From: Chlorobiales bacterium
GTDB taxonomy: Bacteria > Bacteroidota > Chlorobiia > Chlorobiales > JACMJS01
Length of the DNA stretch: 35,899 bases
Direction: 5' to 3'
NCBI GenBank assembly: GCA_014380515.1
Contig: JACMJS010000119.1
Location: forward strand, 1 to 35,899
The translations under genes and the position numbers were made by a program. The notes beneath the pieces were generated by a model. The model searched no databases. It was given only the letters and a program-made list of their open reading frames with translations, and was not told where the DNA came from. This document shows, in pieces, positions 10,090-22,176 of this stretch; the stretch's first letter is position 1; every line of letters begins with the position of its first letter.

Positions 10090-10117
10090 GTAGGGGCGAG
10101 GCATGCCTCGCCCCTAC
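10090..10117. repeat. Perfect 28-base palindrome, GTAGGGGC family
   Basis: Two 14-base arms (GTAGGGGCGAGGCA and its exact complement) meet without a loop. Related, more decayed copies lie at 11523-11571 and 22121-22176. It is intergenic, after the metY-like stop codon. Confidence 0.75.
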
Positions 10118-10315: not shown

Positions 10316-11512
10316 ATGAAACGAACATGGATTTTACCAACACTGTTTTTACTCTTTGCTCACACCACGCTCATTGCCCAAACCGCGATGCCCAACAAAA
10401 TGGCGGGCGTAGATATAAAAGCCCTTGCGGAGCGGATTGTTACGCAGAGTGCGGCGGTGAAGGAAGGCGAGATTGTTCAGATCACGGGTAGCGTGCGCGA
10501 CGCCGAACTTCTGGACGAAATCGCTCTGAACGTCTATAAAGTTGGAGGACATGCATTTGTCAGGCTCTCCAGCGAAATGCGCAGCTGGCGATCTTTCAAC
10601 GAAGTACCCGCCAAGTATGATTCTCAAGAGCCAAAACTCGGTTTGAAGCTTGCCGAAATCATTGATGTCCTTATCAACGTCAGCGTCGGTGAAAATTTAA
10701 ACTTATTCGCTGGTGCCGATCCCGTTCGTTTGGCCGCACAGGAAAAAGCCTCCGCGGGGCTTATTCCTATTTATATCAAACGCAAGGTTCGCAGGGTAGA
10801 CGTAGGCAACGATCTTTATCCGACGGCGAATCTCGCCAAGCGGTGGGGCGTTTCGGAAAGTGATCTGGCGTCGCTGTTCTGGAAAGGGGTTTCAGCCGAT
10901 TACACGCGCATTGCGGCGACGGGCGAAAGTGTCAAAGCGCGGCTTGCGGGGGGCAAGGAACTGGTGCTCACACATCCGAACGGCACGAACTTAAAGATGC
11001 GCATCGAACAGCGTCCGGTGGTCGTCAGCGACGGTCTTATTTCGGAAGCGGATAAGCAAGCAGGCGCCGCGGCGTCGATCGTGTATTTGCCCGCAGGCGA
11101 GGTGATGGTTACGCCTGTGCCCGGTACGGCTGAAGGCACGGTGGTCATCGACCGGCAATTCTACGAGGGCAAAGAAATTGGCGCAATGACGCTGACGTTC
11201 AAAGCGGGCAAAATGACTTCGATGACGTCCAAGTCCGACATCACGCGGCTCAAAGCCTTTTACGACGCGGCGGGTGCACGCAAAGATGAGTTCGCCGTTA
11301 TCGACATCGGCATCAATTCAGAAATCGGTTTGATTGCGGGCAGCAAAATGGAATCTTGGATTCCGGCGGGCATGATCACCGTCGGCTTCGGCGGCAACGA
11401 TTGGGCGGGCGGCGATAATCCGGCGACATTTGTCTGGGGTGGGCATCAAAGCGGATGCACGCTGAAAGTCGATGGCCAAACGCTCGTCGAGAACGGCACA
11501 TTGAAACCATAA
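10316..11512 (+). CDS. Exported M29-like aminopeptidase, possibly lacking canonical metal ligands
   Basis: 398 residues with an N-terminal signal peptide (MKRTWILPTLFLLFAHTTLIAQ). The body resembles peptidase family M29 (AmpS/aminopeptidase T): the region VYLPAGEVMVTPVPGTAEGTVVID corresponds to the conserved PxGEVfTaP block, and IDIGINSEIGLI, GFGGNDWAGGDNPA and LKVDGQTLVENG match the C-terminal half. In canonical M29 enzymes, as I remember the family, the metal ligands include a His in a HxALG segment and the HxD of a SxxHWD segment. Here the matching positions read MITVGFG and ATFVWGG, so those ligands seem absent. A Glu in AGEV and another in NSEIG remain. It may be a periplasmic relative with altered chemistry or a non-enzyme. 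Transcribed alone after a terminator. Confidence 0.7.
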   Translation: MKRTWILPTLFLLFAHTTLIAQTAMPNKMAGVDIKALAERIVTQSAAVKEGEIVQITGSVRDAELLDEIALNVYKVGGHAFVRLSSEMRSWRSFNEVPAKYDSQEPKLGLKLAEIIDVLINVSVGENLNLFAGADPVRLAAQEKASAGLIPIYIKRKVRRVDVGNDLYPTANLAKRWGVSESDLASLFWKGVSADYTRIAATGESVKARLAGGKELVLTHPNGTNLKMRIEQRPVVVSDGLISEADKQAGAAASIVYLPAGEVMVTPVPGTAEGTVVIDRQFYEGKEIGAMTLTFKAGKMTSMTSKSDITRLKAFYDAAGARKDEFAVIDIGINSEIGLIAGSKMESWIPAGMITVGFGGNDWAGGDNPATFVWGGHQSGCTLKVDGQTLVENGTLKP

Positions 11513-11522
11513 CGACATCATC

Positions 11523-11571
11523 GTAGGGACAGCGAGGCGACAGAACTTGTGTTCAATGGTCTCGCCCCTAC
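11523..11571. repeat. Decayed GTAGGGGC-family palindrome
   Basis: GTAGGGACAGCGAGGCGA at the left and CTCGCCCCTAC at the right pair imperfectly around a central insert. It is a degraded member of the family seen intact at 10090-10117. It lies directly between the aminopeptidase stop and the pnp fragment. Confidence 0.55.
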
Positions 11572-11580
11572 ATCGTTCGT

Positions 11581-11673
11581 TCAAAGCCGTTCGATGATCT
11601 TTTTGAACATCGCGGTCATCTTCGGTTCGGCTGTGTTCGCAGCGATCTCCTCGATCTCCTCGATGCTTAACGC
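11581..11673 (-). pseudogene. Second, diverged copy of the pnp 3' end (direct repeat)
   Basis: On the minus strand this reads ALSIEEIEEIAANTAEPK... to FKKIIERL and a TGA stop, matching the last 30 codons of the intact pnp gene at 12368-12457 (AVSIEEVIAAANMAEPK... FKKVIERL). The last 51 bases differ at only two positions; further in, divergence is greater and one codon is added. There is no upstream part of the gene here. The fragment abuts the vapC stop codon, overlapping the toxin gene by seven bases in another frame. With the intact gene end it brackets the toxin-antitoxin pair as a direct repeat. Confidence 0.85.
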
Positions 11674-12080
11674 AGAAGGGCGGTGAAACCGGCTTGTTCA
11701 AAATCGATGTCATGAGCGAGGGCTTCGGTGATGCTTTGCTCGTGCATGACGACGAATGAAATGCAGTCCGTCATTCCCCAACATTTATCGGGACGCTGCC
11801 GGTAGAGCACAAATGCTTTTGCGTAGAGATCGGATGTAACCGGCACAATTTCAACCATCGGATTGTTTTCGAAGCCCTGCAACAGTCGCGCGGCTGCCGC
11901 TCGATATTTTTCCCGTGAAAGTGCATTCCCGATTTCGGTCAAGACTGCATGCGTCGTTACCAAGCGGGCCTGTTGCCGAAGGATTTCCTGTTCCAGCTCC
12001 ACCGCCTTCGCGTAATGAATGTTCGATGCAAAAGCCAGCGAGAGCGCAAAGCCGGTATCGATAAAAAGACGGTTCGTCAT
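11667..12080 (-). CDS. vapC: VapC-like PIN-domain toxin
   Basis: 137 residues with the PIN nuclease fold: Asp8 in LFIDTGFALSL, Glu49 in VLTEIGNAL, Asp105 in WGMTDCISFVVM, and Asp124/126 in ALAHDIDFEQAGF. These acidic residues coordinate the metal used for RNA cleavage. The ATG overlaps the stop of the antitoxin gene by four bases, the usual translational coupling of such pairs. Its last codons run into the duplicated pnp 3' end, and the stop TAA is formed within that repeat. The target RNA cannot be told from sequence. Confidence 0.88.
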   Translation of the reverse strand: MTNRLFIDTGFALSLAFASNIHYAKAVELEQEILRQQARLVTTHAVLTEIGNALSREKYRAAAARLLQGFENNPMVEIVPVTSDLYAKAFVLYRQRPDKCWGMTDCISFVVMHEQSITEALAHDIDFEQAGFTALLR

Positions 12081-12313
12081 TTCAAGCGGCCTTGTTCCTT
12101 GTAAGATTCCGAATAGTCCGGTGGCAAGTCGTTGAGGTCGCCGCTTTCTGCCACTTCCCGAAACGCCTCAAAGAAAGACGAGAGTGCTTTGCGATCCGCC
12201 ATATCAGAATCCATCGTGCGCGCCTGAACGGTTACGGTGTCGCCATCCTGAAACTCCGGCGCGTCCAGAATAATTTTGCCGTGCTTAACGATGGCGGTTT
12301 TCGTGATAGTCAT
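12077..12313 (-). CDS. Antitoxin of the PIN-toxin pair
   Basis: 78 residues. The N-terminus (MTITKTAIVKHGKIILDAPEFQDGDTVTVQ) resembles a short swapped-hairpin/AbrB-like DNA-binding strand set, and the C-terminus is acidic and flexible (SGDLNDLPPDYSESYKEQ), as needed to wrap the toxin. It overlaps the vapC start by four bases and begins 54 bases after the pnp stop. The family is not one I can name firmly; the call rests on size, position and coupling to the PIN gene. Confidence 0.78.
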   Translation of the reverse strand: MTITKTAIVKHGKIILDAPEFQDGDTVTVQARTMDSDMADRKALSSFFEAFREVAESGDLNDLPPDYSESYKEQGRLK

Positions 12314-12367
12314 TTCAGGTCTCTGTTTTTGTGTTTATGAAATTGCTTCACCTCTACGACGATAGTC

Positions 12368-13189
12368 TCAAAGCCGTTCGATGACCTTTTTGAAAATCGC
12401 GGTCATCTTCGGTTCGGCCATATTTGCGGCGGCGATCACTTCCTCGATGCTGACGGCTTTCAAACTTTCGGGAAAGCATTCATCGGTGATGATCGAGATA
12501 CCCAAAACTTTCGTGCCTTGATGCACCGCTGCAATCACTTCCGGCACGGTCGACATTCCCACGACGTCGGCTTGCAACAATCGCAGCATCCGGTATTCCG
12601 CCCGCGTCTCCAGCATCGGCCCCGACAGCGCAACATACACGCCCCGCTGCGCCTTGATGCCCAATTCCAACGCAACCTCTTCCGCCAGTTTGATGAGCTG
12701 TTTCGAATAAGGTTCGCTCATATCGGGAAAGCGCGGCCCGATGGTTTCATCGTTCGCGCCGATCAACGGATTATCGCCGAGCAAGTTGATATGATCATCG
12801 ATGATCATCAAATCACCTTTGCGGTAAATCGGATTGAGACCGCCGCACGCATTTGAAATGCAGATTGTTTCTACGCCGAGCGTTTTCATGACGCGCACGG
12901 GGAAAACAATTTGCGGCATCGTGTAGCCTTCGTAGTAATGAAACCGCCCTTGCATCGCCACCACTTTTTTTCCCGACAGCGTGCCGAAGATTAATTTCCC
13001 TTTGTGCGATTCCACCGTCGATACCGGAAAGTGCGGGATGTCGGTGTAATCGAGCACAACTTCCTGCTCGATCTCTTTGGCCAAGCCGCCCAGCCCCGTG
13101 CCGAGCACGATCCCGACCGGATAAGTTTCTTTCGCTTTCGTGCGAATGAATTCATTCGCCGCTTTAATCGCCGTTTGCAATTCCGACAT
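12368..13189 (-). CDS. punA: Purine nucleoside phosphorylase (trimeric class)
   Basis: 273 residues, the usual length. Phosphorolysis of inosine/guanosine for purine salvage. Motifs: phosphate loop GIVLGTGLGGLA, HKGKLIFG, MQGRFHYYEGY, TICISNACGGLNP, the base-binding ALSGPMLETRAEYRML and MSTVPEVIAA, and ITDECFPESL. All conserved positions appear intact. The terminal 30 codons are duplicated at 11581-11673. Upstream on the same strand, after a repeat-filled gap of 190 bases, lie the aminotransferase, cupin, divIVA and yggS genes. Confidence 0.94.
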   Translation of the reverse strand: MSELQTAIKAANEFIRTKAKETYPVGIVLGTGLGGLAKEIEQEVVLDYTDIPHFPVSTVESHKGKLIFGTLSGKKVVAMQGRFHYYEGYTMPQIVFPVRVMKTLGVETICISNACGGLNPIYRKGDLMIIDDHINLLGDNPLIGANDETIGPRFPDMSEPYSKQLIKLAEEVALELGIKAQRGVYVALSGPMLETRAEYRMLRLLQADVVGMSTVPEVIAAVHQGTKVLGISIITDECFPESLKAVSIEEVIAAANMAEPKMTAIFKKVIERL

Positions 13190-13215: not shown

Positions 13216-13380
13216 GAACCCCTTGAAGAAACCCCTGTCAGCCCTGTGCTGACGTCCCCTTTGTTAAAGGGGACCGCGGTTGAAGAATGAAAAATGAAGA
13301 AGTGAAAAGATGAAATATGATTTTTTTGCCTTGCACTCTCTTTACACTCTCCCCTTTGACAAAGGGGAGCGCAGAGGGGT
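13216..13380. repeat. Repeat-rich spacer with two CCCCTTTG...AAAGGGG palindromes
   Basis: Two short palindromes, CCCCTTTGTTAAAGGGG (13256-13272) and CCCCTTTGACAAAGGGG (13351-13367), lie in a spacer whose ends GAACCCC and GGGGTTC are themselves inverted. A TCAGC...GCTGA hairpin lies at the left. A related CCCCCTTGTCAAAGAGGG element occurs at 24053-24080. It sits between the aminotransferase stop and the pnp start. Confidence 0.65.
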
Positions 13381-22100: not shown

Positions 22101-22120
22101 CCGAGGATGATCATTCGTCG

Positions 22121-22176
22121 TAGGGGCAACCCTTGTGGTTGCCCTGAAGACGGGCGACGACAAGCATCGCCCCTAC
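22121..22176. repeat. GTAGGGGC-family palindrome, two-hairpin form
   Basis: Ends GTAGGGGC and GCCCCTAC enclose a first hairpin GGGCAACC / GGTTGCCC and an inner GGGCGA / TCGCCC pair. It occupies the gap between the aldehyde dehydrogenase and DUF779 genes, so it is probably transcribed and folded within that mRNA. Confidence 0.7.

Follow-up and report, generated by a model that had tools for sequence, protein, structure and literature searches.

A vapBC toxin–antitoxin (TA) module in a Chlorobiales bacterium lies between two directly repeated copies of the 3′ end of pnp. We put at roughly 0.6 the probability that recombination at the 3′ end of pnp brought the module in, that an illegitimate joint completed the exchange and left the recipient's own gene tail behind as an orphan, and that the same process has acted recurrently on type II TA modules of the Chlorobiales. 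This reading draws on the repeat structure itself, on its recurrence, on two other loci where relatives show empty and module-only states, and on interspecies transfer at one of them. The pnp–vapBC event belongs to a recurrent pattern that is peculiar neither to pnp nor to vapBC. As a VapC the toxin is unremarkable; what is new is how such modules reach their positions.

The window, by which we mean the whole stretch of 35,899 nt that was analysed, is contig JACMJS010000119.1 (positions 1–35,899) of the Chlorobiales bacterium assembly GCA_014380515.1, a draft of 420 contigs. The target gene pnp is intact; it occupies 12368–13189 on the minus strand and encodes a purine-nucleoside phosphorylase of 273 residues (NCBIfam NF006054, E 5e-116; TIGR01700 above its cut-off). 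Its stop is separated from the antitoxin start by a 54-nt leader (12314–12367, minus strand, delimited by coordinates) that contains no other ORF. Two ORFs follow on the same strand. The one upstream, of 78 residues (12077–12313), has no Pfam or NCBIfam match and is named a putative VapB-like antitoxin by its position. The other is a VapC-type PIN toxin of 137 residues (11667–12080; Pfam PF01850, E 2e-10), the start of which overlaps the stop of the 78-residue ORF as ATGA. Inspection of the toxin located acidic residues D8, E49, D105 and D124/D126, and the protein is complete, homologues aligning up to residue 137, its last. The pair is predicted to be a VapBC module by the PIN domain, the acidic residues and the small overlapping upstream gene. 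The orphan copy of the pnp 3′ end (11581–11666, minus strand) begins at the VapC stop and includes the pnp stop codon. Directly past it sits a REP-like palindrome (11524–11573), and a convergent aminopeptidase-like gene on the plus strand is the right-hand neighbour (10316–11512; Peptidase_M29, Pfam PF02073, E 2e-16).

GC content is 0.52–0.53 in all parts, like the whole window, and base composition is uniform. Only two ORFs of note lie between the repeats, which agrees with the single antitoxin–toxin pair described there by an earlier note on this DNA; neither is an integrase, and no recombinase was found between the repeats. The insert has no ORF of transposase size, the inverted repeats nearby are short and chance-like, and the flanking repeat is ~90 nt long. 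The window holds no tRNA as a target, and the Padloc defence families gave no match at the locus. The palindrome past the orphan was identified by a palindrome-family search as an imperfect member of a ~50-bp REP-like family, GTAGGGGCGA ... TCGCCCCTAC, with 12 exact members in the genome against none for the reversed control pattern. Its match score is 47 (maximum 24 in 1000 shuffles), and further members lie at 10090–10117 and 22120–22176. A REP element as the mobile agent was considered and rejected, the likeness of the 54-nt leader being weak (75 of 1000 shuffles were as good). Two copies of another palindrome, TCCCCTTTG..CAAAGGGGA, are located between pnp and an aminotransferase gene (13255–13277 and 13350–13372).

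The earlier note had read the last ~30 codons of pnp as occurring twice in direct orientation, and the alignment bears this out. The gene-attached copy (12368–12450, minus strand) and the orphan (11581–11666) are 89% identical over 64 nt and 78% over about 105–110 columns (E 1e-19); the local score of 125 compares with a maximum of 39 in 300 shuffles. The orphan spans the last ~28–30 codons, stop included. We also find, as had been noted, that the final 51 nt differ at two positions only and that the inner part is more divergent and longer. Both outer differences change an amino acid (I to M, V to I), and the net gain of 3 nt in the inner part can be read as a 9-nt tandem duplication with a 6-nt loss. 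Synonymous-only differences are seen in four of the six aligned inner codons, and this predominance, on few informative sites, fits two diverged alleles. Similarity begins at the VapC stop (TAA, 11669–11667). The toxin stop had been placed inside the repeat; the contact holds, the two abutting or overlapping by ~1 base, but the stop is not well inside the repeat. Weaker similarity runs ~26 nt beyond the pnp stop (anchored P about 0.003), possibly because both sites adjoin a REP-like palindrome.

Orthologues of pnp are 70–81% identical in 60 relatives from the order. The closest, at ~80% protein identity, all come from other families and are too distant for flank comparison. No orphan pnp 3′ end was found in these 60 relatives and 80 named pnp loci (about 140). 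The case that would have told against the earlier reading, a full second pnp in relatives, is absent: the relatives within the order carry a single orthologous pnp and lack any further 3′ end, and a pnp paralogue or second full copy was rejected on this ground. This absence removes the decayed-duplicate case and does not alone show the mechanism.

Self-comparison of loci with homologues of the window VapC revealed further vapBC modules bracketed by direct repeats, and we therefore surveyed 101 PIN-toxin loci, nearly all from Chlorobiales (L132–L134 are from the wider phylum). A bracket was defined by direct repeats of at least 35 bp, with E up to 1e-5, under 3 kb. The controls were 180 windows of the same order and, from the surveyed loci themselves, 129 positions displaced by 1.8 kb. 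Direct-repeat brackets surround 31 of the 101 PIN loci, against 3/180 control windows and 9/129 shifted positions; repeat-rich islands inflate the weaker, intergenic brackets among them. Within 1.2 kb the counts are 17/101, 1/180 and 1/129. An automatic rule for gene-end brackets (one copy the end of a gene of at least 150 aa, the other an orphan) selected 13 of the 101 loci and none of the 180 controls, with PIN loci from related, draft genomes counted separately and so not independent. The 3′ end of the gene is involved in 11 of the 13 and the 5′ end in two; L233, where the repeat is within 15 nt of the gene stop, may count among the 13. Intergenic brackets at L120, L132, L134, L124 and L233 were rejected as gene-end evidence, having no clear gene end and in some cases being evidently dispersed repeats. 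Two loci were excluded: at L212 the hits come from an array of short repeats, and those at L270 are tandem domain paralogues. The array in L212 (1–3600) is CRISPR-like, with short repeats translated as STRPRRAR/IHAPAKGAT, and lies beside the PIN locus.

The pattern was examined in depth for PIN toxins of one order. None of 40 PIN loci taken from the phylum's other orders has a gene-end bracket, and dispersed repeats bracket two of them; the pattern is thus lineage-enriched, and the TA modules sampled here do not show it in general. Orphan gene ends occurred at three loci in 400 kb of random sequence from TA-rich genomes, and 400 kb of control contained none except a tandem domain paralogue. 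The window case is the only orphan gene end in 240 kb of its own genome.

The genes whose ends are duplicated are diverse and the repeats vary from 41 to 236 bp among bracketed loci. They include an ABC-2 permease gene (L250; 236 bp, 94%), a nitrogenase-component-type oxidoreductase gene (L193; 67 bp, 90%), hipA (L213; 115 bp, 94%), a flavin oxidoreductase gene duplicated at its 5′ end (L211; 205 bp), a gene whose only match, of phosphoribosyltransferase type, is weak (L246; 181 bp) and a histidine-kinase-like gene (L256; 41 bp, starting 4 nt from the VapC stop). An esterase gene has its 3′ end duplicated beside vapBC (L115), and the duplicated 3′ end of ychF (L220, 974–4653; 198 bp, 89%) encloses ParDE and VapBC together in one 2.4-kb insert. 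In three cases (the window, L193 and L256) the orphan begins at or within a few nucleotides of the toxin stop. The antitoxins of the bracketed modules are MazE-type, PSK_trans_fac-type or unassigned. As for the three loci in the TA-rich stretches, ParE and a putative addiction-module antitoxin lie inside one, DUF3368 and UPF0175 inside another; at the third (L397, 13627–15316) the 3′ end of an outer-membrane efflux protein gene (311 bp, 74%) surrounds a flavin/NAD reductase-like ORF, with no evident TA pair.

Relatives at two of these loci, the permease gene (locus A, L250/L333) and the nitrogenase-like gene (locus B, L193), display three states: empty, module without orphan and module with orphan. 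At locus A the native end is the orphan side: in the empty genome G021, the sequence found beyond the orphan in G032 and G330 comes immediately after the gene tail. In G020 the gene is followed by leader and vapBC, and there is no orphan. Its vapC (L349, 4852–5424) carries a 44-nt deletion, while G318 and G360 keep the leader with only part of vapB, and the toxins therefore appear, from these remnants, to have been lost first; G059 retains part of the leader. At locus B, G025 and G291 have gene, leader and vapBC without the orphan, and in the empty genomes G035, G034 and G022 a terminator-like flank comes after the gene. G314 has the module, then the orphan and that flank. The terminator-like flank occurs elsewhere in these genomes, so the evidence is its position directly after the gene and not its mere presence. 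In G314 the joint coincides with the VapC stop, where the module-only sequence and the native gene have about 2 nt in common. At 67 bp, the locus B tails carry too little sequence to tell the imported copy from the other.

At the permease locus, synonymous differences between G032 and G330 number 100/266 in the gene and 4/138 in vapBC (p 5e-17). Identity between G330 and G020 rises from 81–94% in the gene to 99–100% in the leader and vapBC. The last 187 nt of the G330 permease gene are closest to G020 (94% vs 85–88% for others), and the gene-attached tail of G330 is sister to G020 with support 100/99. The AU test rejects the G330 gene-attached tail and its own orphan as sisters (p 0.002); for the G032 tails the same test does not separate them (p 0.41). 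A clade of all module-attached tails is absent from the tree and is not rejected (AU p 0.29). We take these comparisons to show, at the level of sequence, that the module has been transferred between species with a gene tail. The VapC-side junction is common to G032 and G330 (93% over 73 nt), which indicates that the assembled unit itself was inherited or transferred.

These loci bear on two further proposals of the earlier note. Insertion by recombination at the pnp 3′ end with pnp left intact is supported by the direct repeats around vapBC and by the analogous loci, and the idea of a unit travelling with its own version of the target gene end is strengthened by the movement of module and tail between species. 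That the outer copy is the foreign one is not supported. At the two informative loci the polarity is the reverse: the native flank follows the orphan and the gene-attached tail is module-linked. By analogy, pnp would have followed the same route and its orphan would be the native pnp copy.

The proposed sequence of events is as follows. The incoming DNA would derive from a lineage in which the module already lay beside pnp; it may have entered the cell in linear form, natural transformation being one example. On the homologous side, the donor would pair with the recipient pnp through the conserved gene end. On the illegitimate side the far donor end, at the VapC stop, would be joined with little or no homology inside the recipient pnp tail. 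In the product, pnp with its end complete would be followed by vapBC and then by an orphan, the last ~30 codons that the recipient's gene originally had, still in front of the original flank. A homologous anchor with an illegitimate joint needs no integrase, keeps the gene intact, allows variable repeat lengths and makes the native tail the orphan scar. The account is silent on how a module first came beside a given gene. Homology-facilitated illegitimate recombination has been described for Acinetobacter and Streptococcus in transformation. It likewise combines one homologous anchor with one low-homology joint and can duplicate recipient sequence. The G314 joint has an overlap of ~2 nt, and in G330 the homologous side lies within the gene tail. 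Unlike in transformed bacteria, the process here is deduced from end products alone.

The main rival is local target duplication at insertion, which gives the same end product. The module would enter a single site, the cell's own ~90-bp target would be duplicated, and the copies would then diverge. The end structure would be identical, with an intact target gene and repeats of the lengths observed. The orphan could have been lost later to give the module-only states, and an old duplication with such loss in some species may apply. A review describes insertions of restriction-modification systems that are accompanied by duplications of roughly 100 bp (PMC3874152). We nevertheless regard this explanation as unlikely: the two G330 tails are not sisters and the module-linked tail matches that of another species, and in the window the mostly synonymous differences of the inner part, albeit at few sites, are not what decay after a local duplication would favour.

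The other explanations are improbable to differing degrees. Gene 3′ ends are classic integrase targets, and a small circular vapBC element with a pnp-end attachment site, using an integrase in trans, or the remnant of a larger element, would restore the gene end. Such site-specific integration appears improbable given the many unrelated target genes, once with a 5′ end (L211), the variable repeat lengths, and examined inserts that hold small TA genes and no integrase. That the structure is an artefact of a fragmented draft assembly is very improbable. The same junction is present in two assemblies at locus A (G032 and G330), and the pnp copies are only 78–89% identical and thus not an assembler duplicate. 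Least credible is a decayed tandem duplication of pnp into which vapBC was later inserted by chance. A downstream pnp fragment is indeed present, and one genome has a distant tandem pnp paralogue (L085). Against this, the order relatives have a single pnp end, the control sequence is almost free of orphans, and the fragment found across loci is the end of the gene on the side of the module; in the three cases given above it starts at the toxin stop or a few nucleotides from it.

Recombination at the neighbouring gene, the reading we prefer, can be set beside known systems. Insertion with long target duplication is known for restriction-modification gene complexes (Nobusato et al. 2000; Furuta et al. 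2010), as cited in the relevant passages of PMC3874152, PMC3031569 and PMC2654758. The likeness is considerable: an addiction-type gene pair, variable target direct repeats of ~100 bp, an intact target and no transposase. The unit here differs in being a type II TA module and not a restriction-modification system, and the locus A relatives point to an imported gene tail and not a copied recipient target. The window module resembles chromosomal VapBC in its PIN toxin with acidic residues, its small upstream partner and the ATGA overlap; it differs in being flanked by a duplicated neighbour-gene end and in having a partner without a Pfam match. Chlorobium genomes are listed in a table of TA operon distribution published in 2009 (PMC2701414). 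The E. coli TA islets ccd, between folA and apaH, and mazEF, between relA and mazG, are also TA pairs without a mobile element, at sites that are empty in other strains and of a kind where REP sequences also occur, according to the sections of PMC7167474 that deal with them; unlike in the window, those sections describe no gene-end duplication at these sites. The same 2020 review, where it treats the subject, calls the movement of chromosomal TA modules between hosts and their integration unelucidated (PMC7167474). The term homology-facilitated illegitimate recombination is used in PMC6382021. Our literature search, with subscription-only originals outside it, returned nothing describing insertion of the long-target-duplication type, or homology-facilitated illegitimate recombination, for TA modules.

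More broadly, we propose tentatively, at somewhat under even odds, that type II TA modules of the Chlorobiales move between species without a mobile element, using the conserved neighbour gene end as a homology arm, joining illegitimately at the other end and leaving the recipient's displaced gene end as an orphan scar. If true, chromosomal TA modules would have a general route of integration that can be recognised by gene-end scars, and modules may spread between species at one locus by ordinary recombination at the neighbour gene. The footprint, an orphan neighbour-gene end, often at or near the toxin stop, marks about 13% of the PIN loci sampled from one order. Combined with the before, after and recombinant states among species, it would make TA integration scorable in any genome collection and reproducible in a transformable strain.

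We note three other repeat arrangements. Within the window, a direct repeat (997–1105 and 1507–1615; 109 nt, 80%) lies inside a large minus-strand ORF (450–2687), which probably encodes a repeat protein. At L402 (4111–4984) a four-helix bAvd-like gene, of the 23S rRNA intervening sequence family, is bracketed by a 152-bp direct repeat (85%). L121 and L127 (G019:C51) contain tandem vapBC-like segments of about 1.16 kb that are 88% identical, one of the toxin copies being broken.
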